A stretch of 36,310 nucleotides of DNA from Methylophaga sp. (lineage in GTDB: Bacteria; Pseudomonadota; Gammaproteobacteria; Nitrosococcales; Methylophagaceae): NCBI GenBank assembly GCA_002733715.2, contig NVWQ02000018.1, positions 1-36,310 on the forward strand, given 5' to 3'. The translations under genes and the position numbers were made by a program. Of the stretch, positions 6,984-25,568 are shown piece after piece (within the stretch, counting starts at the first letter, position 1; every line of letters starts with the position of its first letter). Below the pieces are notes generated by a model. The model was given only the letters and a program-made list of their open reading frames with translations. It did no database searches and was not told where the DNA came from.

Positions 6984-7003
6984 ATTATATAGGAATTTTT
7001 CCT
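6984..7003 (-). promoter_or_regulatory. pepSY1 promoter with 13-bp palindromic operator
   Basis: The palindrome AGGAATTTTTCCT (6991-7003) is followed on the minus strand, after one base, by a perfect -10 box TATAAT (6989-6984). The palindrome would sit in the spacer and -35 zone. The same AGGAA-N3-TTCCT motif occurs at 9181 and 25556. Confidence 0.55.
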
Positions 7004-7028
7004 GAAGCAAACAGGATATTCACACAAC

Positions 7029-7682
7029 TTAATGACTTTTTATAATTCCCAGTGTCATTGCGATGCGTGCCAAGTCTGCCGCGGTGCTCGCATTTAGCTT
7101 GCTTTTAATCTGTGTACTGTAATTTGCGACAGTTTTATAACCTAAACACAGATCAGTGGCCGCCCCATGCGCCGTCATACCATTAGCCAACAAGCAAAAA
7201 ACATCAAACTCCCGTGGTGACAACACATCAACCACTTCTCTTAATTTTTCTTCATCATTGTGAGCGTTATTTTGTTGCTCAGACAATAAACCCTCTTCAA
7301 CATATTGCTTGCCTGAAGCCACTACCGCCACGGCTTCAGCCAACACTTCTGCCGCACTGTTTTTGCTAACATAACCTCTTGCCCCCGCTTGCAGAGCCCG
7401 TTCAACATAAATAGATTCATCATGAATACTATAAACCAGCACTATCGCATTAGCATCAAGTTGAATAAGACGACGAATTGTCTCTAAACCACCAATTCCG
7501 GGCATCGACAAATCCATTACCACCACATCGGGTTGAAATTCATTATAGTTCTGACATGCCAGTTCACCGCGATCAACATCCATGATTTCATCAATAAAAT
7601 CTTGCGTCGATAACAATATCCGAAAACCCGCACGCACTACCGTGTGATCATCCACTAATAATACTTTAAGCTTTTCACTCAT
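7029..7682 (-). CDS. NarL/LuxR-family response regulator (MoxX-like)
   Basis: This is a DNA-binding response regulator of 217 residues. The receiver domain (1-120) has the acidic pair DD (11-12), phospho-acceptor D57 in VVVMDLSMPG, S85 and K107. The LuxR-type HTH (about 152-200) includes LSPREFDVFCLLANGMT and YKTVANYSTQIKSKLNA. Its start overlaps the kinase stop by eight bases, so the two are translationally coupled partners. All signature residues are present. Its targets probably include the three promoters that share the 13-bp palindrome, but this is inference from position and symmetry. Confidence 0.92.
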   Translation of the reverse strand: MSEKLKVLLVDDHTVVRAGFRILLSTQDFIDEIMDVDRGELACQNYNEFQPDVVVMDLSMPGIGGLETIRRLIQLDANAIVLVYSIHDESIYVERALQAGARGYVSKNSAAEVLAEAVAVVASGKQYVEEGLLSEQQNNAHNDEEKLREVVDVLSPREFDVFCLLANGMTAHGAATDLCLGYKTVANYSTQIKSKLNASTAADLARIAMTLGIIKSH

Positions 7683-9000
7683 TATCTTTTTTCCTTATAA
7701 AAGGCATCCAAGCACTGACGGTCATACCTTTACCGTTGCTTGATTCAAAGCTAAACTGACCGCCTAAATTTTCAACGCGTTCACGCATTCCTAAAACACC
7801 AAAACCTTGCGCCCCCACTTTACCGCCCACACCGTTATCACTCACCACTAATGTTACCCGCGATTGATTAGCCGAATTAACATCCACTGTGACTTCAGAA
7901 GCATTAGCGTGGCGCACAACATTCGTCAAACACTCCTGCACCACCCGATACACATTAATCGCCACCTCATTATCAAGCATTTCTACCTGGTCATCATAAT
8001 GGAATAGTATATCAAGTGTGGGTTGGCGTCTTCGCCATTCATTAACTAAATCAGTCAGTGTTGCACCCAAACCTAACTCCGCCAAACTTAATGGATGAAG
8101 GGTTCGCATCATTGATCGCACTACTTTTGCTAAATGGTCGCAAATCTCAATAATTGAATCGGCTATTGATGGCATATCAACATTGCCCTGCTTTGAAGCC
8201 ACCGCCATCGCTTTAATCGCAGTTAATGATTGCCCCATCTCATCATGTAGCTCTCTCGACATGGTTTTGCGCTCTGTTTCTTGAATATTCATAGTGTGTC
8301 GCGCTAAGGCCTGATTATTTTCTTGAGCTATTTTTAAAGCCCGCGACATATCATTCACCTCAACAGCAATAGCATCAAACTCACTAATGTTTGATGGCGG
8401 AATAACCATGTCATATTGACCCAACTCAACTTGATGCAAACCAGTCAAAATACCTTGCACCGCCCTCAGCATCGAATTAAACACCAAATTAATTGCTAAA
8501 AATATTACCCACAACATCACCACAACAGACCAAAAGAAGGCTTTAGATTCACCCCATGCCTCGGTGATTTCATCCATTGGATTGGCTGTAATGAGAATTG
8601 TTTTTATACTTCCATTCGCCATAGTCACATCATATCTTTCAGTTAAATATTCCGTCATCACCGCTTGAATAAACCACTCAGGTGGTCTATTTTCATCTTC
8701 ATCCACAACGCGTTGCGTAACGAATCTAACAGGTTTCTCACCCTCCTGAGCAATAGAAATCTGCAAATGCCGAGTCTGTTGCAAAGCACTAATTTGAGGC
8801 AACCACTCGCTATTATCCTTACCTTCTATCGGTGCTTGTGCAAAGCCAAACTCAATCATCTGCAAGGCTAAAGTAATGGATGATTGCACCTCTTTCGCCA
8901 CAGATTGCCGTGCCTGCCAAACAGCCGTTGCACCACCTAGTAATAAGATTAATATCACCGAGAAGATAATCCGCAAATTGATTAATGTTCGTAAACTCAT
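7675..9000 (-). CDS. Membrane sensor histidine kinase, HisKA_3 type (MoxY/LapD-like input)
   Basis: In this 441-residue kinase, a membrane segment at about 10-28 and another at about 155-175 enclose a periplasmic domain of roughly 125 residues. The start (MSLRTLINLR... AVWQARQSVAKEVQSS) resembles the LapD/MoxY N-terminal domain. A HAMP-like linker follows, then the dimerisation helix with H252 in TMSRELHDEMGQSLTAIKA, the N box (NVYRVVQECLTNVVRHA) and the G1 box (VVSDNGVGG). MoxY-type kinases control methanol oxidation genes in some methylotrophs, and the related MxaY takes part in the lanthanide switch; the stimulus here is unknown. GGAA lies about eight bases before the ATG. Confidence 0.92.
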   Translation of the reverse strand: MSLRTLINLRIIFSVILILLLGGATAVWQARQSVAKEVQSSITLALQMIEFGFAQAPIEGKDNSEWLPQISALQQTRHLQISIAQEGEKPVRFVTQRVVDEDENRPPEWFIQAVMTEYLTERYDVTMANGSIKTILITANPMDEITEAWGESKAFFWSVVVMLWVIFLAINLVFNSMLRAVQGILTGLHQVELGQYDMVIPPSNISEFDAIAVEVNDMSRALKIAQENNQALARHTMNIQETERKTMSRELHDEMGQSLTAIKAMAVASKQGNVDMPSIADSIIEICDHLAKVVRSMMRTLHPLSLAELGLGATLTDLVNEWRRRQPTLDILFHYDDQVEMLDNEVAINVYRVVQECLTNVVRHANASEVTVDVNSANQSRVTLVVSDNGVGGKVGAQGFGVLGMRERVENLGGQFSFESSNGKGMTVSAWMPFIRKKDNE

Positions 9001-9158
9001 TTCATTTTTTCCATAGATTTTGTCAACTCAACCCCGAAAACAACCATTAGCACATAATTAAAAACTAATATTAAACCTAAAATCAACAAGATAATCGATC
9101 TTCATACTATTTTACATGAGAATCAAACCTTGCCACCAGTGAGCGTTTCCGAGTGAAA

Positions 9159-9174
9159 TGTGACCTCTGTCACG
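9159..9174. promoter_or_regulatory. CRP-like binding site
   Basis: TGTGA-CCTCTG-TCACG matches the CRP/Vfr consensus TGTGA-N6-TCACA at nine of ten arm positions. It lies in the divergent region between the kinase and the small plus-strand gene, seven bases from the palindrome at 9181. Confidence 0.5.
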
Positions 9175-9180
9175 CTTAAA

Positions 9181-9198
9181 AGGAAATTTTCCTATAAC
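9181..9198 (+). promoter_or_regulatory. Second copy of the 13-bp palindrome with adjoining -10-like box
   Basis: AGGAAATTTTCCT (9181-9193) is followed directly on the plus strand by TATAAC (9193-9198). This repeats the operator/-10 layout seen at pepSY1. It could control the small gene at 9245, the kinase operon on the other strand, or both. Confidence 0.5.
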
Positions 9199-9244
9199 GC
9201 TTATTTCAAATTGCTGATTATGATGCACTCCAACGAAATCAGCA

Positions 9245-9457
9245 ATGACCGAAGAACGAATGACAATAGATAATTTAGAACACAGCGCAGCGCCAGCAGA
9301 AAAAAAGATACTGGCATTATTTGATGAAATTTTAAATCACGATGGTTTTGGTGAAATTAAAGTCGAAGTCAAAATTCTTAAACGCAAACAGAAAGAAGTC
9401 ATTATTCATTGCGGTAAACAATATCGCTTTGTTGTAGATACACCGCAACAAGCATAA
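9245..9457 (+). CDS. Small unknown protein ahead of the pilin operon
   Basis: This is a 70-residue soluble protein. ATG 9245 and ATG 9260 are both possible and neither has a strong Shine-Dalgarno. A helical first half (EKKILALFDEILNHDGFGEI) is followed by a strand-rich half (KVEVKILKRKQKEVIIHCGKQYRFVV). The helix-strand pattern ending in a basic hairpin faintly resembles the YezD/DUF2292 group, but I would not assign it. A promoter with the shared palindrome lies just upstream. It is 107 bases before the first pilin gene and may be transcribed with it. Confidence 0.55.
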   Translation: MTEERMTIDNLEHSAAPAEKKILALFDEILNHDGFGEIKVEVKILKRKQKEVIIHCGKQYRFVVDTPQQA

Positions 9458-9482
9458 GCAAGAACAGAGTGTGATTTGGGTT

Positions 9483-9541
9483 CGCATCTGTGGAAAAACC
9501 AACCTTAACAAATGACCAAGAGACTGCGCGGAGCAGATGCG
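9483..9541 (+). promoter_or_regulatory. Inverted repeat in the leader of the first pilin gene
   Basis: CGCATCTG (9483-9490) and CAGATGCG (9534-9541) are perfect 8-bp inverted repeats 43 bases apart, ending 23 bases before the pilin ATG. In mRNA they could form a long-range stem upstream of the ribosome binding site. No known riboswitch consensus is recognised. Confidence 0.3.
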
Positions 9542-9564
9542 GCATAAACTCAAGAGAGACGATA

Positions 9565-10647
9565 ATGAATAGCAAACAAATAAAAAGTGCTTTAAGCACA
9601 TTCCGCGCGGCTGATGTATCAATCATCAAAGATGATGCAACACGTGCACAAGCACAAAAACTTCAAGCGAAACAAAAAGGTTTCACATTACTTGAATTAT
9701 TAATCGTAATCACATTAATCGCCGTATTAGCAACAGCAGCATTAACTGCCTATAACGGTATCGGTGAAACAGCTTCTGATACAGCTGCTGCCAATAACTT
9801 ATTAGATGCACAAAGCGCACTTAATAACTACCGTGCAATCGAAGCGGGCTACCCTGACCAATTTGATAACCTAGCCAATGCATCAGGTACTGATGCTGAC
9901 GGTATGGCAACACTGCGCGCACCTGAAACAAGTGCATTCTTTGGCCAGTGGGTAGCAGTAGATGCCGGTACTGTAGGTTCTGTATGGAAAGCTGTAGGCG
10001 ACTCAATGAAAGCAGTAGGTGTTGAAGAACTGCAAGCACTCACTAACGCCACTACATTCGATGTGGGCTATGTACCCAACTTAGCACTTAATGAAAGCTA
10101 CCCATTAACAAATGATGTAGCTCCTTCTGCTCGTGGTACTGAGCTTGAGCTTTGGGCTAATGACACTTCAGGCGCGCTTTATGGTGGTGTTTCAACAACT
10201 ACTGCGGCTGTTTCAATTGTGCCTTCATCTACAACTGGTGCTGCTGGTGACTGTACTGCAGGCCTTGTAAGTATCACTGATAGTTTTGATGGTACTACTG
10301 CAGATGAAAACCAACGTTTAAACTTAATCAATGATGCAATGGATGATGATGCTTGTGTATTAGTATTAGCGGTTGGTTTTGGTAAAGATGTCCCAGGTTC
10401 AACATCAGGCGACAAAGTTGAAATTTCACAAGTGCCTACACTAGGTACAAATAACGTGAACCCAGCTACGCATTATGCACGTGCCGTTGCCTTATTCCAA
10501 GTGGGTGCTGATGGTAGTGATGGTTCTATTGAAGATGGCGTTATCTCTGCTAGTGAAATCTTCAGAAAAGCACGTTTAGTAGGTATCGTTGACCCAGAAG
10601 GTCGTCAACGTGATGAAGTAATCGCTGCTGCAAACGACGCTGGATAA
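9565..10647 (+). CDS. Large major-type prepilin/pseudopilin with long leader
   Basis: ATG 9565 follows AGAGAGAC and gives 360 residues; an upstream ATG at 9490 is open but lacks such a site. The class III signal is LQAKQKG-FTLLELLIVITLIAV, with cleavage after G39 and E at +5. The leader of 39 residues is far longer than the usual 6-15. The mature N-terminal helix is followed by an Ala- and Asp-rich C-terminal domain with a cysteine pair (GDCTAGL, DDACVLV). It is the first gene of the secretion operon and is followed by a strong terminator, as expected for the most abundant subunit. It would assemble into a pseudopilus or pilus driven by the downstream ATPase. Confidence 0.85.
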   Translation: MNSKQIKSALSTFRAADVSIIKDDATRAQAQKLQAKQKGFTLLELLIVITLIAVLATAALTAYNGIGETASDTAAANNLLDAQSALNNYRAIEAGYPDQFDNLANASGTDADGMATLRAPETSAFFGQWVAVDAGTVGSVWKAVGDSMKAVGVEELQALTNATTFDVGYVPNLALNESYPLTNDVAPSARGTELELWANDTSGALYGGVSTTTAAVSIVPSSTTGAAGDCTAGLVSITDSFDGTTADENQRLNLINDAMDDDACVLVLAVGFGKDVPGSTSGDKVEISQVPTLGTNNVNPATHYARAVALFQVGADGSDGSIEDGVISASEIFRKARLVGIVDPEGRQRDEVIAAANDAG

Positions 10648-10689
10648 TTTGACGTTTTTATAACATCAAGTTAACAACGTAAAAGGACT

Positions 10690-10730
10690 GCGGGGCAAGG
10701 TAATTATCTTGTCCCGCTTTCTTATCTTTT
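10690..10730 (+). terminator. Strong terminator between the first and second pilin genes
   Basis: GCGGGGCAAG (10690-10699) pairs over ten positions (one G-T) with CTTGTCCCGC (10708-10717) around an eight-base loop. TTTCTTATCTTTT follows. It should end most transcripts of the first pilin gene and let only part read on into the machinery genes. Confidence 0.85.
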
Positions 10731-10834
10731 ATATCCCTTAATGATGACGACTATTTGGCTAAACATTGTTCACACAACACTATTTAGCCAAATATTTGAA
10801 TTTAATTAATGAAAACAAGTAAATGAGGTGTTTA

Positions 10835-11602
10835 TTGTTTTTTCAACTTAACCGCACAATAAAACAACAAAAACAGTTAGGCTTCACCCTGCTAGAGCTT
10901 TTGGTTGTGATTGCATTATTAGCGATTGTTGCTGGTGTAGTTATCACTAGTTATGACGGTGTGCAAGACCAAGGTCGTGCTGATGCCACAAAGTTTGAAA
11001 TGGCAGAGCTGCGCAAGGCATTGCTGCAGTTTCGGCGTGATAATCGTGAACTTCCCTGTCGTGTTTATCGTGATGGAAATTATGTTCCCGACAATACAGG
11101 TATAACTCAACTAGACTTCACCAATTTACCTTCAACGCCTTCGGTGGCTGATTACTATCTTTGGTGCGAGAATTCACACACCGACCAAGTCGATTGGGGT
11201 TTAACTTTATTGTTGGCCTTCCCATACGACAATACAGACACAGCCTATACACCGTTATTGTGGAATCCAGATACCAAACATGGTTGGAATGGACCTTATG
11301 TTAATAATCAGGGATTAGTTGATGGCTGGGGGAATCGTTTTGCTTTACTCGATCCTGAGTTGGACTATTCACCTCATTATCGCTGTAAAGAAAATAGCGG
11401 AGATTACGACACCACTGGTGACTTATATTCCTGTTTAACTGCAAATGACGCCTCTTGGAATGCAGTGACTTATACCCTACCCGCAAACATTGTCAGACTA
11501 GTAAGTTTTGGACCCAATGGTAGCTATGAAGGTGACAATATCACTGCTCCTTGCCTACCGAATACTGATAGCGATGATCTTATTCTATGTTTATTGCGAT
11601 AG
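10835..11602 (+). CDS. Prepilin-type pseudopilin 2
   Basis: I prefer the TTG at 10835, because GAGGTG lies five bases upstream of it. The in-frame ATG at 10823 has no ribosome site and contains part of that motif. This gives a 16-residue leader ending KQLG-FTLLELLVVIALLAIVAG, with E at +5. The rest is a pilin globular domain with several cysteines, including a C-terminal pair (APCLPNTDSDDLILCLL) that could close a disulfide loop as in type IV pilins. The repeated GW/WNG segments (HGWNGPYVNNQGLVDGWGNR) resemble the GspG-type fold, where a similar Gly-Pro-Tyr stretch occurs. It is probably a minor or second pseudopilin of this machine. Confidence 0.82.
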   Translation: MFFQLNRTIKQQKQLGFTLLELLVVIALLAIVAGVVITSYDGVQDQGRADATKFEMAELRKALLQFRRDNRELPCRVYRDGNYVPDNTGITQLDFTNLPSTPSVADYYLWCENSHTDQVDWGLTLLLAFPYDNTDTAYTPLLWNPDTKHGWNGPYVNNQGLVDGWGNRFALLDPELDYSPHYRCKENSGDYDTTGDLYSCLTANDASWNAVTYTLPANIVRLVSFGPNGSYEGDNITAPCLPNTDSDDLILCLLR

Positions 11603-11646
11603 CTGGGTGAAATGATGATTAAAAATACAAATGTCACTATCAATAG

Positions 11647-11796
11647 CGTTCGCCCTGAGCTTGTCGAAGGGTTGCTATCACCCATGGTTCTACATGGCTC
11701 TCCTGAAAACAGTTCCGTCATTCCCGCGCAGGCGGGAATCCATAACACCGTTCGGGGTTTAACTGCTCATGGATTCCGGCTACAAGCTACCGGAAT
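11647..11796. repeat. Cluster of dispersed palindromic repeats upstream of pseudopilin 3
   Basis: Three repeat units fill the gap between pseudopilin genes 2 and 3. At 11647-11671 is the widespread sequence whose reverse reads CCTTCGACAAGCTCAGGG. At 11720-11739 is the hairpin ATTCCCGC-GCAG-GCGGGAAT. At 11773-11796 is ATTCCGG/CCGGAAT with a ten-base loop. Such elements are REP-like units. They happen to keep the frame open, so translation from ATG 11612 is possible on paper. Confidence 0.75.
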
Positions 11797-11866
11797 GACA
11801 GGAGTGGTTAGTACTAGAATGACAGGGATAATGAGTAGCGGAATGCCGAAGCGGGCGAAGGTCAGA

Positions 11867-12913
11867 ATGACGAGGCTTGGACGTAAATTACAATCTGGCT
11901 TTACCCTATTAGAAATGGTATTAGTGCTGTTTTTAATTGGTTTAATGGCTTCGGCCACCTTAATGCTCACCGAGAATGTAGAAGATCAAGCCAAATACGA
12001 TGAAACCAAACGCCGGATGGAGATAATGCGTAAAGCCATTGTCGGTGACCCAACACGCACGGTGAATGGTGGGCCTGAAATAAGTGGTTTTGTGGCAGAC
12101 ATGGGGCGTTTGCCTATTTGTATTGCTGAGTTAATTGAGTCTGGTGACGAAACAAGCCCTCCGGCTAGTGGCTCAGATCCTAAAACATATGATTCTCCTT
12201 GTGATGCTTCTGAAATAGTAGCATGGCATGTTGATGCTTCAACTGGAATTGGTTTTGGTTGGCGTGGTCCTTATATTCAGGTGATTCCTGAGCGAGATAG
12301 AGATGGCGATGGTAAACCAGATCTACGTTTTCGTGATGGATACGGTAATTCAAGCATCTCCACAACTATTGATGCTAAAAAATCTGGATGGTTCTTTTCA
12401 CCAGGAAGCAATGCCAGCGGCGCAATTGTAAGCATTGATGTTAGTAGTGCCGCTTACGATTTAGTAGATTCAGGCGATGATATTAGTAATCCATCACTGG
12501 TTACAGGTAATGATTGGCGAATAAATACAATAAATATCAATTTTATCAATCAAAATACTAGTGATGCATTGCCTGCAGCTCCCGTTCAAGCATTACTTCG
12601 AGTTTATATAGGGGCTAAATATGGTGATGCTGATGATTCAGTCCCTCTTGATGTAAGTAATGCTATTCCTGCTAACAGTGGTTCAACTCTAAAAACATTT
12701 GTCTTTGATGCTTCAACTGCAAGTCCAACGATTGGACAGCGAGGCTATGCTGTTGTCTGCTACGATGTGCCAATAGGTAGCACAGCAGATGCCTATGTTT
12801 TATTTGACGGTGATTGTGACAACCCTGGCAATGCACCGCCAACATTAACTGATATTAAATCATTCACCGCTGTTCCCCGTCAAAATATAACCCTAGACTG
12901 GATCATCCAATAA
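11867..12913 (+). CDS. Prepilin-type pseudopilin 3
   Basis: ATG 11867 has GAAGG five bases upstream and gives a normal 11-residue leader, MTRLGRKLQSG-FTLLEMVLVL, with E at +5. The frame is open back to ATG 11612, but that stretch is made of repeat elements, so I reject it as coding. The 348-residue product has the hydrophobic pilin helix, then a globular part with GFGWRGPYIQVIPERDRDGD and DGYGN, resembling the calcium-binding loop region of GspG-like pseudopilins. A large C-terminal beta-rich domain follows. The stop codon overlaps the start of the PilM-like gene (TAATG), so the two are translated together. Confidence 0.82.
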   Translation: MTRLGRKLQSGFTLLEMVLVLFLIGLMASATLMLTENVEDQAKYDETKRRMEIMRKAIVGDPTRTVNGGPEISGFVADMGRLPICIAELIESGDETSPPASGSDPKTYDSPCDASEIVAWHVDASTGIGFGWRGPYIQVIPERDRDGDGKPDLRFRDGYGNSSISTTIDAKKSGWFFSPGSNASGAIVSIDVSSAAYDLVDSGDDISNPSLVTGNDWRINTININFINQNTSDALPAAPVQALLRVYIGAKYGDADDSVPLDVSNAIPANSGSTLKTFVFDASTASPTIGQRGYAVVCYDVPIGSTADAYVLFDGDCDNPGNAPPTLTDIKSFTAVPRQNITLDWIIQ

Positions 12914-14682
12914 TGCTGAAATCACTCTTCAATTTCGGCAAAACAAAAATGCTGTTAGTCTGTGAAACCGATGGTTTTATTATGCGTGGTGCAGTGTTTA
13001 CCCGTGCGGGTAAAGAAGTCGTTATCCTGCATAAAGCACAATCACAACAAGCTAATATGGCCGATGCGGTTGCGGATGTGATCAAACAACTCAAAGAGGC
13101 AGGCTGGGAAGGTAATGAGGCCGTATTACTCTCGCCCACCGTTTTATCTACATTAATTGAATTACCCATTAACCCTAAAAAACCGCGGCCCTTAGCGCAA
13201 ATGCAAGAGTTGGTGAAGTGGGAAGTTGAACCCTTATTAATGCAACATACCACCCAATGGTCAGTGGGGCATTTATTAGTCGGTCGCGGTTATATGACCG
13301 AGGAGCAAGCTGAAGCCGTAATGGATCTGCAACAGGCTAAACCTAACCCAGCCGGTGGTTTAGAATTATCAGATAAATATGCATTACGTCGCTTTGGTGA
13401 GTTAGCCGAAGAACTGGGTTATATTCGTGCTAGCCAACTTAAAGCCTGCCTTGCAGGGCAAGAGTGGTTAAAATCAGATGATGAAGAAATCGAATGTGGT
13501 TGGATCCCACAAGGTGAAGCGCCCGATATACCCAGAACGTATAACTGGCTGGTCAGTTGTACAAGCAAGTCATTATTACAGCGTTGGATAAAAACATTCA
13601 GCACACAAGGTATAAATTTACAGGCAATGTATCCACTTGCTGGTTGTAGCTCTGTTTTGTTGGCTGATGAATCTTCTGATGCCGTTTTGTTAGAGTCACA
13701 TGCTGATTCTGCCTTTGTTCAGCAAATCGTTGAAGAAAAAATAGCGGCGCAATTTCTACTGGTTAACCCAGCAAAACAAGCTGTTGAACTGTGTATAGAA
13801 AGTTTCCATACCTTAAATCCATCGTCAACGGAGGCTGTTTATCTGGCTGATTGGCAAGATAACAGCCAAGATCTTGCCAATGAGCTAAAAAATACGCTTG
13901 ATATAACACCCACAATACTCAATCAAGCACTTATTTCAGAGGGCGTTAGCCCCGGAATGGCGGGTGCAAGCCTACATGCACTCTCTTCTTCGGATGTAAA
14001 ACGATGTACTGATGTACGCTTAGGTGGGCCACCACCTGCATTGTGGGATCGAATCGAAGTGCGTGCTATTGCCTTATTTTTAGCACTCTTTTTATTAATT
14101 GCTGGCTTAGAAGCCTCACTTTTTATTAGAGGTGATCAAATTCGATCACATAAAGCAGAAATAGATGCACGCTGGAAAAATATTGACAGTGCTTCAAAAC
14201 GTATTAACAATGAAATAGCCCAAGTTAACGAACGAAAAAAATCAATCAAAGAACAACAACAACAAGCAAAAAGAGCCCAGGCGAGATTAGAATTTTTCAG
14301 TAAAGAAATCCCTGAGCGTGTTGCCTTGGTGCAAGCCGTAATAGGTGTTCTACAATCAGCGGTAAACGAGCAGCTGATTGTGACTAAAATTGATGAACTT
14401 GGAAAACGTGCCACGCTTATGCCCGCCTTACCAAGATCCAATAAAGACACACGAGTAGAAGTAGAAAATTTTAACATTGCCGCATGGTCTTTGACTGAAT
14501 CTGCAGCACAAACATTTATTCAATCAATGAGTGATGCACTTCAACCCTGGGGGATAGAAATTCGAGATAGCCGTGTATTTGCACGCCCCGGCCCGGTGAA
14601 TATAGATGGTTTTGCTGTTTCATTACGATTAGTCAAATTAGTCTCCGCCGAAGAAATAAAACAACAACGGGCGATTCAATGA
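12913..14682 (+). CDS. PilM/PilN (GspL-like) inner-membrane assembly protein with MshEN-like insert
   Basis: In this 589-residue protein, the cytoplasmic part (1-380) is a PilM/GspL-type actin-like platform. One membrane segment (about 384-404, ALFLALFLLIAGLEASLF) leads to a periplasmic coiled coil and a PilN/GspL-C-like ferredoxin domain. Within the cytoplasmic part, residues 117-140 and 160-183 form two repeats (SVGHLLVGRGYMTEEQ..., RFGELAEELGYIRASQ...) that fit the 24-residue MshEN pattern RLGxxL...L...L..Q. That pattern normally occurs at the N-terminus of MshE-like ATPases, where it binds c-di-GMP. Here the spacer is 19 residues rather than five, so ligand binding is uncertain. The gene overlaps both neighbours slightly. 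Confidence 0.8.
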   Translation: MLKSLFNFGKTKMLLVCETDGFIMRGAVFTRAGKEVVILHKAQSQQANMADAVADVIKQLKEAGWEGNEAVLLSPTVLSTLIELPINPKKPRPLAQMQELVKWEVEPLLMQHTTQWSVGHLLVGRGYMTEEQAEAVMDLQQAKPNPAGGLELSDKYALRRFGELAEELGYIRASQLKACLAGQEWLKSDDEEIECGWIPQGEAPDIPRTYNWLVSCTSKSLLQRWIKTFSTQGINLQAMYPLAGCSSVLLADESSDAVLLESHADSAFVQQIVEEKIAAQFLLVNPAKQAVELCIESFHTLNPSSTEAVYLADWQDNSQDLANELKNTLDITPTILNQALISEGVSPGMAGASLHALSSSDVKRCTDVRLGGPPPALWDRIEVRAIALFLALFLLIAGLEASLFIRGDQIRSHKAEIDARWKNIDSASKRINNEIAQVNERKKSIKEQQQQAKRAQARLEFFSKEIPERVALVQAVIGVLQSAVNEQLIVTKIDELGKRATLMPALPRSNKDTRVEVENFNIAAWSLTESAAQTFIQSMSDALQPWGIEIRDSRVFARPGPVNIDGFAVSLRLVKLVSAEEIKQQRAIQ

Positions 14683-15431
14683 CGCTTTCTAAATTAAAAA
14701 AATCAGAGCAAATTTTATTTGCCAGCATCATTATTATATTGGTATTAGGTGCTTATTCATTCTTTCGTTTTATTCCTGAAAATGATGACATCGCAAAACT
14801 ACATCGGCAAGTAGAAAAAACACAAATCAAGCTACTTGATACCGATATTCCTAATGAACCAGAACAAAATGTTGCCGAATTATTAACACAACTTGATGAC
14901 CAAGAACACGCTTTAGCACTGACACAAAGCATGGCTGATGAAATCAGCCAGCGTCTCGCTCCTTTTGATTCGCAAGACTTAAAAGTTCGTATTTCAGAAC
15001 TAGCCCAAAAGTCAAAAATGCGGATCGTAACAAATGAGGAATTTTCTTCTCTTAACCATCTTCACTCACCATCAAAATTTAATACACAACAATACAAAGA
15101 TCTAAGCAAAACAGAAAGAAAAGCAAGAAGAAAAGCAGCAAGAGCGGCACAACAACAGACAAAAAAACAAGACAACACTAGGCAAACTGATTTGATTTTA
15201 GCAGCCAATTATAGCTGGATTGAACGCATGTCTGCTAAAACCATGTTTTATCGTCCTTTACAGCGTTTGGTTGTTGAAGGAAGCTATCAATCGTTGCGAT
15301 CGTTTATTCAGGGGCTTGATCATTTGGAATGGCAAGTCACCATCGTTCGTTTAGATATTGAAGCAATGCCCTTTGCACCACCACGGGGTTATCCGCAATT
15401 GCTGCAAGCTGAACTTGTGTTGGCTTTATAG
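14679..15431 (+). CDS. PilO/GspM-like inner-membrane protein
   Basis: This 250-residue protein starts by an ATGA overlap with the PilM/N gene. It has a short cytoplasmic tail, a membrane segment at about 12-30 (ILFASIIIILVLGAYSFF), a helical periplasmic stretch, and a C-terminal domain ending SLRSFIQGLDHLEWQVTIVRLDI, typical of PilO and MshJ proteins. A run of basic residues (KTERKARRKAARAAQQQTKK) interrupts the middle and is unusual for a periplasmic domain. It would pair with the PilN half of the previous protein to connect the inner-membrane platform with the secretin. Confidence 0.78.
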   Translation: MTLSKLKKSEQILFASIIIILVLGAYSFFRFIPENDDIAKLHRQVEKTQIKLLDTDIPNEPEQNVAELLTQLDDQEHALALTQSMADEISQRLAPFDSQDLKVRISELAQKSKMRIVTNEEFSSLNHLHSPSKFNTQQYKDLSKTERKARRKAARAAQQQTKKQDNTRQTDLILAANYSWIERMSAKTMFYRPLQRLVVEGSYQSLRSFIQGLDHLEWQVTIVRLDIEAMPFAPPRGYPQLLQAELVLAL

Positions 15432-15439
15432 GAAATACC

Positions 15440-17086: not shown

Positions 17087-17087
17087 T

Positions 17088-18308
17088 ATGGCTCTTTTTG
17101 CCTATACCGCATTGACCTCTTCGGGTGGAGAACTGTCAGGAAAACAACAAGCAGACGACATGGCTACTGCGGCAAACGCTTTACGGGAACGCGGTTTACG
17201 TGTTCTTGAAATAAAAGCAGCACGGGGAAGCTCTGGCTTTTTAGGTCAAGAAAATGTATCCGATTGGTTCGCTTCGCAACGTTCGGTTTCGCCCTCTTCT
17301 TTAGTCTTTTTCTTTCGTCAAATGGCCTTTATGTTACGTGCTGGCTTGCCGATATTACAGGCTCTCGAATTAGCAAAAACGCAAATGTCGAATGCACGCC
17401 TAAGGCTTGTTCTTAAACTCATGTTAAAAGATATTGAGTCAGGCACGGCACTCTCCTTAGCGTTAAAAAAACACAAAGATGTTTTTTCAAACATGGTCAT
17501 TAACCTTATTTTTGCCGGTGAAAACACGGGTAACCTTGATGAAATCATGGAACGGCTTGCGATTCATTTAGAAAAAAAAGCAGCCATTCGCGCCCAAATG
17601 ATTAATGCCATGATTTATCCTTCGGTGGTTTTGGTGGCTGCAATTGGTGTGGGTGCATTTATGACACTCAATATCATACCCAAATTTGCTGAGTTTTTAC
17701 TTGCGCAGGGCAGAGTCTTGCCTGCGTCAACCCAAGCGCTTATCGATACCTCTGCATTTGTACAAAAAAATGGACTCTATATTGTGGGCGCCGCCATTGC
17801 AGTGATTGTGCTTATTTTACTTATCTACCAAATTAAGCGTGGCCGTTACCTCATTGATAGTCTTTTACTTCGCGTACCCATCTTCGGCGGCATGATTACA
17901 ACCAGTTCAATGGCTCAAATGACATGGGGCTTATCAACCTTATTACGCAGTGGCGTAACGGTCTTTGACGCGTTGAATATCACAGCTGGCCTTATAAAAA
18001 ATCGTGTTTATGTTGATCTACTAATGCGTGGATCTGATCTTGTTTTAACAGGTAAAGATATGGTCAGTAGCTTGCAACATCCGCAAATGCCTCCCTTAGT
18101 ATTGCAAATGATAACTGTCGGTGAAAAAACAGGGAGTCTTGACCGAATATTGCAAGAGTTAGGAAGCTATTATCAACAGTTATTAGAAATTGCCGTCAAG
18201 CGATTATCTGCACTGATTGAACCCGCAATGATTCTATTTATCGGTGGCATGGTTGGCTTTGTTTATTATGCTTTTTTCCAAGCACTCTTTTCCTTGGTCG
18301 GAGGTTAA
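17088..18308 (+). CDS. GspF/PilC-type inner-membrane platform protein
   Basis: ATG 17088 (MALFAYTALTSSGGE) is the normal family start and lies one base after the ATPase stop, with GAGG nine bases upstream. An upstream TTG at 17073 would overlap the ATPase gene and is not needed. The 406-residue product has the two GspF repeats: FFRQMAFMLRAGLPILQALE in the first and MTWGLSTLLRSGVTVFDALN in the second. Membrane segments lie near the middle (PSVVLVAAIGVGAFMTLNII, GLYIVGAAIAVIVLILLIY) and at the C-terminus (MILFIGGMVGFVYYAFFQAL). It anchors the ATPase and feeds pilin subunits into the growing fibre. Confidence 0.95.
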   Translation: MALFAYTALTSSGGELSGKQQADDMATAANALRERGLRVLEIKAARGSSGFLGQENVSDWFASQRSVSPSSLVFFFRQMAFMLRAGLPILQALELAKTQMSNARLRLVLKLMLKDIESGTALSLALKKHKDVFSNMVINLIFAGENTGNLDEIMERLAIHLEKKAAIRAQMINAMIYPSVVLVAAIGVGAFMTLNIIPKFAEFLLAQGRVLPASTQALIDTSAFVQKNGLYIVGAAIAVIVLILLIYQIKRGRYLIDSLLLRVPIFGGMITTSSMAQMTWGLSTLLRSGVTVFDALNITAGLIKNRVYVDLLMRGSDLVLTGKDMVSSLQHPQMPPLVLQMITVGEKTGSLDRILQELGSYYQQLLEIAVKRLSALIEPAMILFIGGMVGFVYYAFFQALFSLVGG

Positions 18309-18310
18309 AA

Positions 18311-18757
18311 ATGGTACTTAAAATTACACTTTCTATTGTACTTACTTTACTGTACAGCTTGCCCTTAACATCCTTAGCCGCTGGGCAAGAAAATAACCCT
18401 TATTTCCAAAGAAATAGTAGTATCTCACCCCAGACAATCCGCGACCCCTTTACACCAAGCGGTTTAATGTTTGAGGTGGCCAGTAAATCTTCAGTGTTCA
18501 ACAACAAGGGCTTTACCAGTGCACCCGGTAATTCGCCTATTCCGAAAATGCGATTGCGAGGTTTTATTGATCAGAATCAAAAATCTCCCCTGGCACTGCT
18601 TGAAGTAGCAGGCGCCAGAACCTATTTAGTTCGTGAAGGTGATGATATTAATATCGATCCTTCTCAACCCAATAGCGTTATCCGCATTACTAAAATAACC
18701 CGTCAAAGTATCACCGTAGAAACGGGATTACTTGGCGCTATTCGAGTTCAAAGATAA
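18311..18757 (+). CDS. PilP/MshK-like periplasmic link protein
   Basis: This 148-residue protein has a signal peptide (ITLSIVLTLLYSLPLTSLAA) and starts two bases after the GspF stop, with GGAGG in the overlap. The short N-terminal motif RDPFTPSG and the small beta domain (MRLRGFIDQ, ALLEVAGARTYLVREGDDI, ITVETGLLGAIRV) match the PilP/GspC homology region, which bridges the inner-membrane complex and the secretin N0 domain. It lacks a transmembrane anchor of the GspC type and has no lipobox. Confidence 0.75.
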   Translation: MVLKITLSIVLTLLYSLPLTSLAAGQENNPYFQRNSSISPQTIRDPFTPSGLMFEVASKSSVFNNKGFTSAPGNSPIPKMRLRGFIDQNQKSPLALLEVAGARTYLVREGDDINIDPSQPNSVIRITKITRQSITVETGLLGAIRVQR

Positions 18758-18763
18758 TACACC

Positions 18764-20740
18764 ATGAAAAAAATGTGCTCTGTTACCTACTTGTTATTCT
18801 TTTATATTGCTAGTTTTTCTGCATTTGCTGGTAACCAAATAAAAGAACTTGAATTTGCTGATACACAATTAACGGATGTCATTCGAACTTTATCCGAATT
18901 ATCGAACAGCAATGTCATCGCTACTCCCGCGGCGACTAAAAATAAGGTCACTATCCGTCTGAGAAATGTCTCGGTGCTTGATGCTATAAAATCGATTAGC
19001 CGCATTACCAATTTATGGTACCGCTATGATGATGATACCAAGACCTACCGCATTATGACCCGTGAAGAATATGGTAAGGATTTAATCATCCGAGAGAGTG
19101 AGAATATTGAGGTATTCCATCTACTCAATGCCAATGTACAAATCATTGCTCAAGCTATTCAAGACTTATATGGTAATCGCGTTATTTTATCTTTGGGACG
19201 CGCTGCCGGCCAGTCTGGGAAAAATGTAGGATCGAGTAATGCGAGACGTGGTGGCGGTGGCGTTAGAAACTCAAGATCGACAGCAGGAAGGGCGAACCGT
19301 TCTAACCGAGCTAATCGCCGTAATTCCGGTGCTGCTGGCGCGTTTGCCACCGGTGGCAACCAATTATTATCGTCTCGAGATCTGACTGTTGACCAAATTG
19401 AACAACTTTCTTCTAGCCTAGAAGGGCAAACAGTCAATACAGAAATCCTACAACAAGTTACCGTTAATGCCCAACCTATTTATATTACGGTGAATAATGA
19501 ACATAGTATGATTATCGTTCGTACTGATGATCAAAAAGTACTTAAATCCATTGATTCATTAATCAACAAAATGGATATTCCAATTCCACAAGTCATGTTA
19601 GAAATGAAGATCCTTAACATCACACTAGGTGAAGATTTTAATTCCATTTTTAATTTTGAGTTACAGCCCAGCGGCGGAAACCAATCTCTACAACCTATCA
19701 AAATAGGCAATAATGCGTTATTAAATAGTGGTTCTTATATTTATGAATTTTTAAATTCTAGGCTTCGAGCCAATATTGAGTTTCTAGAACAAAACAAACG
19801 GATAAAAGTACTATCCAATCCGATGGTTTTAGCCTCAAATCATCGACAAGCTGAGTTATTTATTGGTGAAGAAAGCTTGTTAACACGTGGCTTTATCTTT
19901 AATCCTGCCGTTATTACTAATGGAGTGGTTGTCTCTCCTTCCTATGTCGAAACTGAAACAGAAGTACAAGAAATTGGTATCACCTTACGTATCACACCTC
20001 GTATTAACGCCGATGGCACAGTGGCACTAGATCTAGAACAAGAAAACTCGACACTCAAACCAGGCGGCGCAACACTTCCAATTTCAGATGGCGCAGGAAG
20101 TGTACTGAACTTGCCCATTGATACTGTGGAAACTGCAAGGCTGACAGGAACCGTTGTAGCCCGAGATAATCTCACCGTTGCGGTGGGTGGTTTAATTCGC
20201 AATAGTAAAGTTAATAATGAGAAGAAGGTGCCTATATTATCGGAAATACCTGTAATAGGACGCATCTTCAGAACAACCATTGAAAGTGAGCAGAATACTG
20301 AGACGGTATTACTCATTACACCTCATATTCTTAATAAGCCGCAAGATAGTGAGAAGCTACGCCAAGCCGATAATCAATTTTATCAATCCTATAACGATGG
20401 CTTTCCTGATCTTGCACCCTTTCCCAATAAGTTTATAGATAAAGAACCATTATCATCATCCAATAACAAAGCTAACAAAAGTCAGAAGGTTTATCTGGAA
20501 ATGAGTCAATATGCTGCTGATACTATTCGTATCGCTGAGATTGATCGCAAGCTAGATCCTAAATATTTTCCCGACAAAGTAAAACGTGTTGCCGTCACAA
20601 ATTTATTTGATAACAATCAAATAAAAGTGATGCCTTTAGCAAGCTGGAACCGTGGAGGCATGTATGTAACCGCTGTAGAGTTAGTCAATAAAGCGAACTC
20701 AACCTTGCCTGTTGATTATAAAAAAATAAAAGGAAAATGA
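18764..20740 (+). CDS. Type II/IV secretin with extra C-terminal domain
   Basis: This 658-residue outer-membrane secretin has a signal peptide to about residue 22, an N0/STN domain (LEFADTQLTDVIRTLSELSN), an N1 domain (VFHLLNANVQIIAQAI), and then a flexible insert rich in Arg, Asn and Gly (about 155-198). The core secretin (about 275-522) includes VMLEMKILNITLGEDFN, VLSNPMVLASNHRQAELFIG and the signature VAVGGLIRNSKV... VPILSEIPVIGRIFR. Beyond it, residues 575-658 form an added domain (VKRVAVTN, KVMPLASWNRGGMYVTAVEL) that recalls the TraK-like DUF3438 family of conjugative elements. No pilotin gene is visible nearby. Confidence 0.9.
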   Translation: MKKMCSVTYLLFFYIASFSAFAGNQIKELEFADTQLTDVIRTLSELSNSNVIATPAATKNKVTIRLRNVSVLDAIKSISRITNLWYRYDDDTKTYRIMTREEYGKDLIIRESENIEVFHLLNANVQIIAQAIQDLYGNRVILSLGRAAGQSGKNVGSSNARRGGGGVRNSRSTAGRANRSNRANRRNSGAAGAFATGGNQLLSSRDLTVDQIEQLSSSLEGQTVNTEILQQVTVNAQPIYITVNNEHSMIIVRTDDQKVLKSIDSLINKMDIPIPQVMLEMKILNITLGEDFNSIFNFELQPSGGNQSLQPIKIGNNALLNSGSYIYEFLNSRLRANIEFLEQNKRIKVLSNPMVLASNHRQAELFIGEESLLTRGFIFNPAVITNGVVVSPSYVETETEVQEIGITLRITPRINADGTVALDLEQENSTLKPGGATLPISDGAGSVLNLPIDTVETARLTGTVVARDNLTVAVGGLIRNSKVNNEKKVPILSEIPVIGRIFRTTIESEQNTETVLLITPHILNKPQDSEKLRQADNQFYQSYNDGFPDLAPFPNKFIDKEPLSSSNNKANKSQKVYLEMSQYAADTIRIAEIDRKLDPKYFPDKVKRVAVTNLFDNNQIKVMPLASWNRGGMYVTAVELVNKANSTLPVDYKKIKGK

Positions 20741-22459: not shown

Positions 22460-22469
22460 TATACCCAAA

Positions 22470-22502
22470 TAAAAAAACTGCGATATTGATAAACAATACC
22501 GC
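22470..22502 (-). terminator. Likely terminator of the pepSY2 transcript
   Basis: GCGATATTG (22480-22488) and CAATACCGC (22494-22502) form a stem with one mismatch. Seven A bases to the left give a U run on the minus strand. It lies about 50 bases after the pepSY2 stop. Confidence 0.6.
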
Positions 22503-22521
22503 GGCTAAGGGAAAGGAGAAA

Positions 22522-22548
22522 CCTGTATCTTCAAGTATTTTGGGTATA
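22522..22548 (-). repeat. Dispersed TATACCC-type repeat at the 3' end of pepSY2
   Basis: Read on the minus strand it is TATACCCAAAATACTTGAAG followed by ATACAGG. It belongs to the same family as the five copies at 31797-32155. A partial inverted copy (TATACCCAAA) lies at 22460-22469, so the pair brackets the terminator. Confidence 0.55.
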
Positions 22549-22549
22549 A

Positions 22550-23062
22550 CTATTCTAAACCAATCTGCCAAAGCTCTCGGTTAGCTTCAACAATTTCACC
22601 TGTTGTGGCATCAACTTCTACTTTCATTTGCTGGCCGGCAATTTTAGTATCAATATCAAATTCATAGCTAGCCGCACCATTGGCTTCAATTTCATATTCA
22701 ATTTCAACGATAACCCCAGGATAAATAGCCAGTGCTGTTTTACGTGCATCATCTTCACTGACCTTCATCTTAGCTTTGAATAAAGGATGGTTCACATTTT
22801 CAACTTCACGCTCTACTTCAGATACCAAACCTCGATGAGCATTACATTCAACATCCCAGTCCGCACCATCAGTGCCTCGAATGTCGAATTCATACATATG
22901 AGCGCCTTCTTCGTTTTTAAATTCTACTTTTACGATATCACCCGGGCGTTCGTCTAAAGCCGCAGCCATACATTTTTCAAATTGGTGCGGACTATCATTA
23001 TCGGCCATTGCAAAGGGAGATATCGCCATAAACACAATGGAAGCTATTACTGTTTTTTTCAT
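22550..23062 (-). CDS. Periplasmic acidic protein with two PepSY domains (copy 2)
   Basis: This 170-residue paralogue of the PepSY protein at 6364-6912 has a signal peptide [21 protein letters not shown]. The two PepSY units contain [19 protein letters not shown] and [20 protein letters not shown] with [14 protein letters not shown]31 and C73 have the same 42-residue spacing as in copy 1. It is slightly less acidic than copy 1 and contains more histidines. It lies 120 bases downstream of the TonB receptor on the same strand with no terminator that I see between them, so an operon is likely. Role inferred: periplasmic metal buffering or capture after receptor uptake. Confidence 0.85.
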
Positions 23063-23182
23063 TCTCTGTTCTCTAATTGTTTGTTTGAAAAAAGAAGAGA
23101 CCTTTTAGAATGTACTATCTAAAAGATCTCCTTTGAGTCGTGATTCACTTGTTTTTCAACAGGCTAAGCTCACATAAGCTAA

Positions 23183-25471
23183 TTACATTGAAACTTTGAT
23201 ACCAATCCAGCCGGCACGTGGAGCACCGACACCTTGGAATCGTGGATCAGACATGGCAGGTGTTCTTCCTGGACCACTTCCATCAAATATTTCAGAAGGG
23301 TCACCTAACAAACCAAAGTTAGCGTACTCTTTATCAAACAGATTATTTAGTTTCGCAAAGAATTTGATATTAGATGTCAATTTATAATCAGCATGTAAGT
23401 TAACTAAAGTATAACCAGCCAATCGTCCTAACTGATTAGATTCATCACCTCGGTAATATTGGTTCGAATTAACTAAAGCGTCCCCACCCAATGAAAATTT
23501 TGGCGTAACGGCATAATCAGCTACTAACTTGAAATTATGTGCAGGTATACCTGGGATTCTATCACCTGATTTTACAAGAATATCACCATTACCATCTGCA
23601 TTCGGATGTGCCGGGCTACTTATTTTAAGTGGTGAACGGAATTCAGCATCAACATAAGAATAATTCACTGCCCATGAGAATGCACCCTGATCACCAGAAA
23701 CACCTAACTCGATACCTTGACGGCGTGTTTTACCAATATTGTCGAAGTAGCCTAGGTTACCTGTTGTTCCTCCCGTACTGATAAATAAAATATCATCCTG
23801 ATTTGTGGTAGTAAATAAGCCTGCATTCCATGCAATAGATTGTCCCCAATGACCTCTTAAACCACCCTCCCAACTTTTAGCCACTACTTGATCTAGAGGC
23901 GGATCCGATAAAAATGCATTCGGTAACGTACAAGGATCATTCGGATCAGAACAACCTAATTCAGAAGGCGTTGGTGCACGCGATGATTCGCTATAGCTCA
24001 AGTAAGTCGATGCCATATCATTAAATGCAAAGGTCAAACCTGCTGCAGGGTTAAAGCGGTTAAACTTATGTGTGGCATTAATCGTTGAAGCTGCATCAAG
24101 ATTATCTTTTACTTTAATCTCAGTATTATTGTAGCGACCGCTTAATGTCACAGCTAATCGTTCAGTCAATGATAATGTGTCGGTGAAGAATAGACTATAA
24201 GTACGATTTTTAGTGCTGACATCAACAGCTTCATCTGGAACAAAAATACCCGTGAGGGTTGTTGCCCTAGCATCCGTTAAATCAACTACTTCAACTGATG
24301 CCTGATAGTCACTGCTACCTTTATCATAACTCGCGCCGGTTACAAGCTGATTTTCATAACCCGCAATATCGTTCAAGAAGGTTAATTGTCCCTGTAAGCC
24401 ACCACTACTTTCTTCAATAGAACCACGATTATTAATCGCATCAGCAATCAAAATATTGTTGCCATTTTGGTCGCCTAGTATATTTCCATCATCATCTAGC
24501 AAGAATGTACCATCATCATCAAAGTCTGCCCCATCGCCATTAAAACTGTTTGTTTTATTATTGCGATAATAGGCATTACCTGCCAATTGCAAACTATCAT
24601 TAATCCAGTGGCTTCCTGTTAAATTAAGCAACTGCATTCTGTTTTCAGTGACATCAGGTGAAGTAAATATTGCTCTACGGTTAATATCAATCAACTCAAC
24701 GGGTGCAGGTCCATTACCAATCAAATTATTATTAGAAGCCGTTAAACTTAAATCTAATGTTGATGTCTCACTACGCCAGCTACCATTGGCAAACAGTTGT
24801 TTGACTTCAGATGGGGAGTCATCACGCCAGCCATCTTCTTTAAACCAGTTTCCTGTTACAAAATAGCCTAAGTTACCATCATTGCCACCACTTTCTATTT
24901 CAACAGCACGACGATTAAATGATCCCCAATAACCTTGAATAGAATGACCCGGATTGGTAAAACCATTTTTGCTTTGAATGGATAATGCGCCACCCAGAGT
25001 ATTTAAACCAAACAATGGATTAGAACCCGGCATTAAGTTAATACTCGCGATGGCAGATTGTGGAATGGTATCCCAATGCACATTATCACCAAAAGGAGTA
25101 TTAAGCCGAACACCATCCATATAAACCGCTAAACCTTGTGCCAACCCAAGCAATGGTGAAGCACTAAAGCCACGATATTGCACATCGGGTTGGTAAGGGT
25201 TGTTTTGTGCTGAGTTGATATTGACACTACCTAATGTTCGCGTCATAAAGTCTGTCATATCAAGACTTTGTGATCTTTCTATATCTTCCGCCGTAGCTGT
25301 TTGGACGTTAGTCGCTATCATATCCGCAGGCAAGCCGACACCATGTAGTGGCGTAGTGCCTATAACTTCAATATCTGTTAACTCAATGCTATCTTCTGCT
25401 GCAAATGATGCAGTCGTTATCGTGCTTAGAATAATCAGTGATAAAACTGACCGTTTGTGGGGTAAATTCAT
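23183..25471 (-). CDS. TonB-dependent outer-membrane receptor
   Basis: ATG 25471 is preferred over a TTG nine bases upstream, because GAGAG then has normal spacing. The 762-residue product has a signal peptide ending ASFA-A, a plug domain with a TonB-box-like start (ELTDIEVIG) and QYRGFSASPLLGLAQGLAVY, followed by a 22-strand barrel. The C-terminus has the family pattern FAKLNNLFDKEYANFG, and the chain ends in WIGIKVSM. No FecA-type N-terminal signalling domain is present. An unusually acidic loop (about residues 311-338, with DFDDDGTFLLDDDGNILGDQ) could bind a cation. The substrate is unknown; iron complexes are the default, and lanthanide complexes are possible given the PepSY partner. Confidence 0.9.
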   Translation of the reverse strand: MNLPHKRSVLSLIILSTITTASFAAEDSIELTDIEVIGTTPLHGVGLPADMIATNVQTATAEDIERSQSLDMTDFMTRTLGSVNINSAQNNPYQPDVQYRGFSASPLLGLAQGLAVYMDGVRLNTPFGDNVHWDTIPQSAIASINLMPGSNPLFGLNTLGGALSIQSKNGFTNPGHSIQGYWGSFNRRAVEIESGGNDGNLGYFVTGNWFKEDGWRDDSPSEVKQLFANGSWRSETSTLDLSLTASNNNLIGNGPAPVELIDINRRAIFTSPDVTENRMQLLNLTGSHWINDSLQLAGNAYYRNNKTNSFNGDGADFDDDGTFLLDDDGNILGDQNGNNILIADAINNRGSIEESSGGLQGQLTFLNDIAGYENQLVTGASYDKGSSDYQASVEVVDLTDARATTLTGIFVPDEAVDVSTKNRTYSLFFTDTLSLTERLAVTLSGRYNNTEIKVKDNLDAASTINATHKFNRFNPAAGLTFAFNDMASTYLSYSESSRAPTPSELGCSDPNDPCTLPNAFLSDPPLDQVVAKSWEGGLRGHWGQSIAWNAGLFTTTNQDDILFISTGGTTGNLGYFDNIGKTRRQGIELGVSGDQGAFSWAVNYSYVDAEFRSPLKISSPAHPNADGNGDILVKSGDRIPGIPAHNFKLVADYAVTPKFSLGGDALVNSNQYYRGDESNQLGRLAGYTLVNLHADYKLTSNIKFFAKLNNLFDKEYANFGLLGDPSEIFDGSGPGRTPAMSDPRFQGVGAPRAGWIGIKVSM

Positions 25472-25555
25472 AATCTGCAACTCTCTCGCTCTATATAAAA
25501 TTTTATTATTGTTCGGACGAGCGCGATAATATCAGGATAACTCCCGCCTGCAACT

Positions 25556-25568
25556 AGGAAAAATTCCT
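25556..25568 (-). promoter_or_regulatory. Third copy of the 13-bp palindrome, upstream of the TonB receptor
   Basis: AGGAAAAATTCCT is the exact reverse complement of the pepSY1 site at 6991-7003. Its centre is about 91 bases before the receptor ATG, close to the 85 bases at pepSY1. A TATTAT sequence about 25 bases downstream could be the -10 box. Confidence 0.55.

Follow-up and report, generated by a model that had tools for sequence, protein, structure and literature searches.

The 36,310-nt stretch analysed here (the window; contig NVWQ02000018.1 of the Methylophaga sp. assembly GCA_002733715.2) carries one 13-bp palindrome, AGGAA-N3-TTCCT, in front of three genes of an apparent uptake system, and raises the question of what is taken up, which protein reads the palindrome and how far its regulon extends. 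An earlier note made from the letters of this DNA had linked the palindromes to a two-component system, two PepSY genes and a TonB receptor gene, and had proposed that the NarL-type regulator encoded between them, or another factor, controls all three promoters. The palindrome is probably a DNA switch for the response to rare earth metals in methanol-eating bacteria and their relatives. We consider it likely that the palindromes form the operator of a lanthanide regulon that would be bound by NarL-family regulators of the MxaB/MoxX type, the binder, the signal and the polarity being argued from conservation, position and homology.

The window was scanned for the exact pattern, and the palindromes were recovered at all three positions (Table 1); they are real, not chance. 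Sites 1 and 3 are exact reverse complements, with centres 85 and 91 bases from the gene starts at 6912 and 25471, as had been described. The genome (2.83 Mb in 80 contigs, the window being all of the 36-kb contig C15) was searched in the same way, with the pattern written backwards as control. AGGAA-N3-TTCCT was found at 5 places, 3 of them in the window contig, against 1 for the control; of the remaining two, one fell within an ntrC-like coding region (C56) and the other in front of a GGDEF gene (C74; names assigned by eye). RGGA-W5-TCCY was found at 13 places (7 intergenic) against 0 backwards. A genome-wide scan of this kind had been named beforehand as a possible refuter, and it came out in favour. 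AGGA-N5-TCCT was found at 27 places against 17 backwards; a crude caller of open reading frames (ORFs) sorted 13 of the 27 as intergenic, for comparison with an intergenic share of 11% of bases in the loci of 80 relatives. Besides the 3 window sites, the 13 intergenic places included 4 related to xoxF, MoxYX or pyrroloquinoline quinone (PQQ): at xoxF (C12), at a second MoxYX-like kinase gene (C12), at a gene with weak likeness to PQQ_ABC_bind, next to which comes a beta-propeller gene matching PQQ_ABC_repeats above cut-off (C78), and behind the 3' end of the C5 xoxF. A cut xoxF-like gene (C23) was preceded by two RGGA-N5-TCCY sites. The sites at xoxF, the second MoxYX-like pair and the PQQ_ABC-like gene extend the predicted regulon beyond the single uptake system over 18 kb to which it had been confined.

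Conservation was assessed on upstream regions, of which 107 were collected and 82 were non-redundant, by blind enumeration of all palindromes with 3-base arms and gaps of 0–15 in the latter. GGA-N5-TCC ranked first, in 46/82 regions versus 2.6 in shuffles (9/9 small-ORF, 27/48 lanP and 10/25 TonB regions of this first set). At orthologous promoters the palindrome lay at about -90 to -121 of lanP-A in 8/10 genomes, with GGGAAAAATTCCC in a ninth; upstream of the small ORF in 10/10 regions (window plus nine loci); and, where present at the TonB receptor gene, mostly at -80 to -107, with two at -140 and -148. Across 80 loci, the intergenic DNA in front of system genes (19.8 kb) contained 44 copies of RGGA-N5-TCCY, the remaining intergenic DNA (105.9 kb) 9 and the coding DNA (998 kb) 49 (backwards pattern: 1, 4 and 20); the motif is 26 times as dense in front of system genes as in the remaining intergenic DNA. 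The promoters of LanA-like receptor genes from genomes around a Methylococcaceae genome, a set that took no part in motif definition, carried the motif in 27/30 cases at -53 to -156, and blind enumeration of this set again ranked it first (27/30 versus 1.35 expected).

By homology the locus is a lanthanide-uptake locus of a Methylophaga-like methylotroph, given its LanP homologues, MxaY-like kinase, MxaB-like regulator and LanA-like receptor and the presence in the genome of XoxF (PDB 6oc5, E 8e-267) and pqqB. The earlier note spoke of one uptake system and did not recognise lanthanides as what it takes up. Both PepSY proteins are LanP homologues (lanP-A 182 aa, lanP-B 170 aa, 46% identical; N-termini signal-like by eye), and lanthanide binding by them is putative. 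Their nearest named relatives are in Methylophaga and Piscirickettsiaceae assemblies. lanP-B is 61% identical to the chain of PDB entries 9vy3-9vya, one solved sequence in eight entries named 'Propeptide, PepSY amd peptidase M4', which we take to be LanP itself from its name and from its 80–87% identity to the LanP homologues of five Methylobacillus loci. Both PepSY genes had been placed behind a palindrome; the second sits behind the TonB gene, which directly precedes the lanP-B homologue in 13/13 loci (L134–L146).

In a search of 41 genomes around a Methylococcaceae genome, 38 had relatives of the receptor at E 1e-80 or better, those of full length being up to 49% identical; the receptor looks LanA-like, its putative orthology being argued from distribution and context. 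Four regulators from two Methylococcaceae genomes share 51–57% identity with the window regulator, two lying beside mxaF or divergent from it (51–52%) and two being of a second regulator type (56–57%); its likeness to MxaB is judged from these. The LapD/MoxY domain of the kinase is one also stated for MxaY (PMC6115532), and a change of E147 to G locks MxaY of Methylotuvimicrobium (Methylomicrobium) buryatense on (PMC5018670); the window kinase likewise has E as its residue 147 (in DEITEAW), a correspondence of residue number. The 70-aa ORF gave no NCBIfam family and one sub-threshold Pfam match; relatives 53–86% identical were found near the kinase in 9 named loci (the L163 copy not divergent from it). 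With the operator in front of it, this ORF is predicted to be a new member of the lanthanide regulon.

Table 1. Features of the window (positions in the 36,310-nt stretch).
Feature	Position	Strand	Basis or remark
lanP-A, two PepSY domains, LanP (lanpepsy) homologue, probably periplasmic	6364..6912	-	PF03413 in two stretches, 1e-18; PDB 9vy3-9vya chain, E 4e-42
lanP-A leader, conserved hairpin candidate with loop TGNGGGT	6927..6983	-	alignment and pair counts
Palindrome 1, operator candidate	6991..7003	-	AGGAAAAATTCCT in lanP-A direction; exact match
NarL/LuxR-type response regulator, MxaB/MoxX-like	7029..7682	-	Response_reg and GerE; recognition helix LGYKTVANYSTQIKSKL
Sensor histidine kinase, MxaY/MoxY-like	7675..9000	-	LapD_MoxY_N, HisKA_3 and HATPase_c, all above Pfam cut-off
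Palindrome 2, operator candidate	9181..9193	+	AGGAAATTTTCCT, before divergent small ORF; exact match
-10-like box TATGAT	9219..9224	+	25 bp after palindrome 2; box at 24–25 bp in 10/10 small-ORF regions
70-aa ORF, conserved, function unassigned	9245..9457	+	divergent from kinase gene here; translation
lanP-B, second LanP homologue, behind TonB gene	22550..23062	-	PepSY in two stretches; PDB 9vy3, E 5.5e-53
TonB-dependent receptor, LanA-like	23183..25471	-	plug and barrel by Pfam; relatives in methanotroph set
-10-like box TATTAT	25526..25531	-	24 bp after palindrome 3
Palindrome 3, operator candidate	25556..25568	-	AGGAATTTTTCCT in TonB receptor gene direction; exact match

Promoter geometry was examined around each site. 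A -10-like box directly after sites 1 and 2 had been described; this held for site 1, where TATAAT follows after one base, and failed for site 2, where the conserved box (TATGAT/TACCAT/TATTAT/TACTAT) lies 24–25 bases further on. A similar box was seen 24 bp after the site in 10/17 site-bearing TonB regions (some from the same genome twice). This spacing would put the centre of the site at about -43, a position typical of activators. At lanP-A the box lies 18 bp on in several Methylophaga and almost adjoins the palindrome in the window and its near relatives, so that the site there overlaps the core promoter and could repress. A scan of the three sites for the sigma-70 consensus gave 7 and 1 hits versus shuffle means of 6.5 and 1.3, with no hit facing lanP-A, the small ORF or the TonB gene.

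Site 2 had been assigned to the two-component system, and it may be asked whether it controls the kinase-regulator operon by autoregulation, instead of or besides the small ORF. It lies in the intergenic region shared by the two, 181 bp before the kinase start; a 9-of-12 sigma-70-like hit at 9136-9109 (within shuffle expectation) faces the kinase; and paralogous kinase genes have sites in front. Across ten loci, however, the distance from the palindrome to the kinase varies from 124 to 526 bp, whereas the spacing to the small-ORF box is fixed, which argues that site 2 belongs first to the 70-aa ORF. Autoregulation through site 2 is for this reason held to be unlikely, though of the alternatives weighed here it fares best.

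A mechanism can be proposed on these elements. The kinase would read lanthanide status through its periplasmic LapD/MoxY domain and phosphorylate the NarL-type regulator, and dimers of this regulator and of MxaB/MoxX-type paralogues would bind the inverted repeat RGGA-N5-TCCY, most often as AGGAAWWWTTCCT. At the TonB receptor gene, which lanP-B follows, and at the small ORF, a site centred about 43 bp upstream of the predicted transcription start, with no good -35 element, would favour activation. At lanP-A the site adjoins or overlaps the core promoter and could repress; at some xoxF genes it is so placed that the bound regulator would repress. On the simplest reading, in which the polarity is conjectural, the same phosphorylated regulator would activate uptake and repress xoxF when lanthanides are scarce.

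The reach of the motif was followed into other families. RGGA-N5-TCCY was present upstream of lanP in all five Methylobacillus loci (L147, L148, L152, L155, L173) and, as three sites each, in three Methyloversatilis loci; it was found upstream of lanP in 0/10 Methylotenera and Methylovorus loci (L149–L151, L153, L154, L157, L160, L161, L164, L166). Thirty genes of PQQ-dehydrogenase type from 16 named genomes were scored within 350 bp of a script-chosen start, and 16/30 had a site, including 6/8 with WDYAG/WDFAG, which we take to be the calcium-type (mxaF) motif, and several with WDYDG (xoxF). Regulator loci were collected around a Methylococcaceae genome, of which 20/30 were scorable; GGA-N5-TCC was found upstream in 14/20, and all 14 were among the 16 regulators with a KTVCN/KTICN helix (MxaB-type), many of them divergent from mxaF with the site in between. 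The supposed 18-kb limit is thus exceeded in other families too, with sites at mxaF, mxaB, lanP and LanA-like genes. On balance we favour, with less assurance than the operator itself, the view that RGGA-N5-TCCY is a general operator of MxaB-type regulators and marks one old lanthanide-switch regulon of Methylophagaceae, Methylococcales, Methylophilaceae and Methyloversatilis.

Several arrangements were seen at these promoters. In Methylobacillus arboreus, caricis and gramineus (L225, L242, L243) the xoxF site stands just behind TGGCAC-N5-TTGCC, which looks like a sigma-54 promoter; the placement of the site looks repressor-like. In L288 and L289 a divergent gene resembles a sigma-54 activator (by eye). 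The mxaF-mxaB intergenic regions of L292, L294, L299, L304 and L306 contain two sites 33 or 37 bp apart, and some such regions have more TTTTCC-like half sites towards mxaF. In Alteromonas-type genomes (L199, L200, L203) lanP lies near a PQQ dehydrogenase gene (37–38% identical to XoxF) and TonB receptor genes, and a CGGA-N5-TCCC palindrome precedes lanP.

A second palindrome and candidate operator, TGGYTG-N4-CARCCA (enumerated as TGG-N10-CCA), was found in 22/82 regions versus 2.6 in shuffles. It replaces RGGA-N5-TCCY at the TonB promoters L107–L109, L120 and L123–L127, is also present at Methylotenera lanP promoters (e.g., L149, L160, L164, L166), and is doubled in several promoters, with copies about 23 bp apart. 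Its presence at the same genes is possibly a rewiring to another regulator.

Which protein binds was approached through the recognition helix. Sites were found near regulators with a KTV[ACS]N-type helix in 43/64 loci and near others in 4/19 (Fisher p 5e-4; redundancy-reduced set). The other class was of TVGTH/TIGTH type in 16/19 cases, and L032, L269 and L317 (KTVAN/KTAAN/KTVVN-type, two with a site) were counted in it for technical reasons and kept there. Short symmetric inverted repeats suit NarL-family dimers. DosR, which also belongs to the NarL family, combines helix KTVKNY with a GGGAC...GTCCC site, a parallel and not a test. This distribution of sites fits recognition by the KTV[ACS]N helix class. 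The genetics of M. buryatense points the same way, towards an MxaB-type regulator as binder: there MxaY increases the transcripts of mxaF and mxaB, decreases those of xoxF, and is regarded as active without lanthanum (PMC5018670). Cerium lowers mxaFI and its putative regulatory genes in Methylococcus capsulatus (PMC10728633). What survives of the earlier proposal is the shared, conserved operator, with the NarL-type family as the best candidate for its binder.

The operator could be real and mark the lanthanide/methanol regulon while an unlinked transcription factor binds it, the MxaB-type regulators being merely further targets. Sites do stand before paralogous MoxYX-type kinase genes (mostly at -66 to -115) and before mxaB as they do before targets, and some genomes with a regulator orthologue use another motif at the TonB gene. 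Autoregulation accounts equally well for sites at regulator genes, however, and two points speak against a different binder: the presence of a site tracks the recognition-helix class of the local regulator, and a short symmetric repeat suits NarL-family dimers. We regard an unlinked factor as improbable, slightly more so than autoregulation through site 2, and retain the MxaB/MoxX-type regulators as the probable binders.

A locus for iron or haem instead of lanthanides is suggested by the best NCBIfam models of the receptor (TonB-siderophor, PqqU and hemin), all of them below cut-off and generic, but is very hard to reconcile with two LanP homologues and an MxaY-like kinase, with xoxF, mxaF and PQQ-ABC-like genes that share the operator, and with five other loci in which lanP has xoxF or a related PQQ dehydrogenase gene close by. 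The Fur box, for which no scan was made, is unlike RGGA-N5-TCCY. That the palindromes are chance matches or structural DNA of no regulatory meaning can be dismissed for practical purposes, for although AT-rich short palindromes arise by chance and the two-mismatch pattern was not enriched in the window (10 found versus 16.95 expected), the sites are conserved at orthologous promoters across genera and families, at the density and in the separate receptor set given above. The missing enrichment places the signal in tight sites only, and loose matches were left unused.

Several counts weigh against a lanthanide operator read by MxaB/MoxX-type regulators. GGA-N5-TCC was missing from 36/82 regions, including 15/25 TonB regions of the first set, and 18 of the 22 TGG-N10-CCA regions lacked it, among them regions from genomes with a regulator orthologue. 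In the genome, 6/13 RGGA-W5-TCCY and 14/27 AGGA-N5-TCCT places were coding, and 6 of the 13 intergenic AGGA-N5-TCCT places had no evident link to the system (C74 GGDEF, C56 cytochrome b561-like, C54 SRPBCC-like, C63, C21 and C35; names by eye). On contig C5 the full-length xoxF is preceded by nothing closer than a site with two mismatches, and 14/30 dehydrogenase promoters were without RGGA-N5-TCCY. KTVAN/KTAAN/KTIAN regulators of the Methylococcaceae set had a site in 0/4 scored regions (L312 having been scored inside the kinase gene), ten further upstream regions of this type being too short to score. The helix-site association is partly one of neighbourhood, because such regulators sit beside target genes, and motif counts overstate independence because the sequences share ancestry.

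The lanP-A leader was treated separately. Its hairpin candidate, with a bulged G in the stem and in some cases a T run after it, was also seen in L054, L055, L058–L060, L062, L064, L067 and L082. Stem cells were paired in 90.2% of cases and the covariation score was above all 500 shuffles; double-sided pair changes (3) and pair types (8) did not exceed the shuffles, being matched in 71 and 444 of 500, and taken by itself the window leader adopts a different predicted fold. A covariance model, searched against 82 of 274 sources, gave 10 hits, all of them lanP-A leaders from the Methylophaga group, which had also served to build the model, and one strong hit in the genome; Rfam gave nothing at the lanP leader. 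As the common element of the regulon the hairpin was rejected, because among the sequences searched it was found only at lanP-A leaders, with a single strong hit in the genome. It is possibly an attenuator or a leader RNA.

Elsewhere in the window, the gene run at 9490-20740 between the two halves of the locus resembles a type IV pilus or type II secretion-like assembly cluster (by eye). At the left end, a cut tRNA piece (1-78), the only Rfam hit in the whole window, is followed by a phage-type integrase-like ORF (231-1484; by eye), possibly an integrated element.

The closest described system is MxaY/MxaB of M. buryatense 5GB1C, a LapD/MoxY-type kinase and a NarL-type regulator seemingly of the same family, as judged from family likeness and description. 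There MxaB is described as an orphan and a different regulator, 50% identical to MxaB, follows mxaY (PMC5018670); unlike in M. buryatense, the kinase-regulator pair of the window adjoins lanP and would control the uptake genes. Set beside the LanA TonB receptor of M. buryatense, the window receptor has relatives in the 38 methanotroph-set genomes mentioned, with the operator before 27/30 of those scored. PMC12482762 and PMC11845868 describe LanP as a periplasmic protein of 19 kDa that binds lanthanides and has two PepSY domains. With LanP of Methylobacillus flagellatus the window proteins share the two PepSY domains and a size of about 19 kDa, and they are homologous to the PDB 9vy3 chain; the window differs in having two copies, of which lanP-A follows an operator of its own and lanP-B follows the receptor gene. 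PedS2/PedR2 of Pseudomonas putida is likewise a kinase with a LuxR-type regulator, and depending on lanthanum PedR2 acts as activator of one PQQ dehydrogenase and repressor of the other (PMC6115532). The terms 'motif' and 'binding site' are absent from the text of that paper on PedS2/PedR2, and no operator is mentioned in the available part of PMC5018670 on MxaY/MxaB. In the open-licence papers searched no operator of MxaB-type regulators, nor a DNA target of MxaY, MxaB or PedR2, was found; subscription papers could hold one.

Genetics has established MxaY, MxaB and PedR2 as regulators of the lanthanide switch, and the tie of the uptake genes to this switch is the question addressed here. Through the single operator proposed, the uptake of lanthanides and their binding in the periplasm would be coupled to the change between calcium- and lanthanide-dependent methanol dehydrogenases. 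With a 13-bp operator that can be read from the genome, the regulon of many methylotrophs and methanotrophs can be predicted, mutations can be aimed at exact bases, and new members such as the 70-aa ORF stand out. Rare-earth recovery by bacteria is touched by this, and so is methane oxidation, which depends on these dehydrogenases. If the wider regulon is as old and as general as we favour, LanA, LanP, the sensor, the regulator, MxaF and XoxF would all be wired by one palindrome, and its position relative to the promoter would decide between activation and repression.

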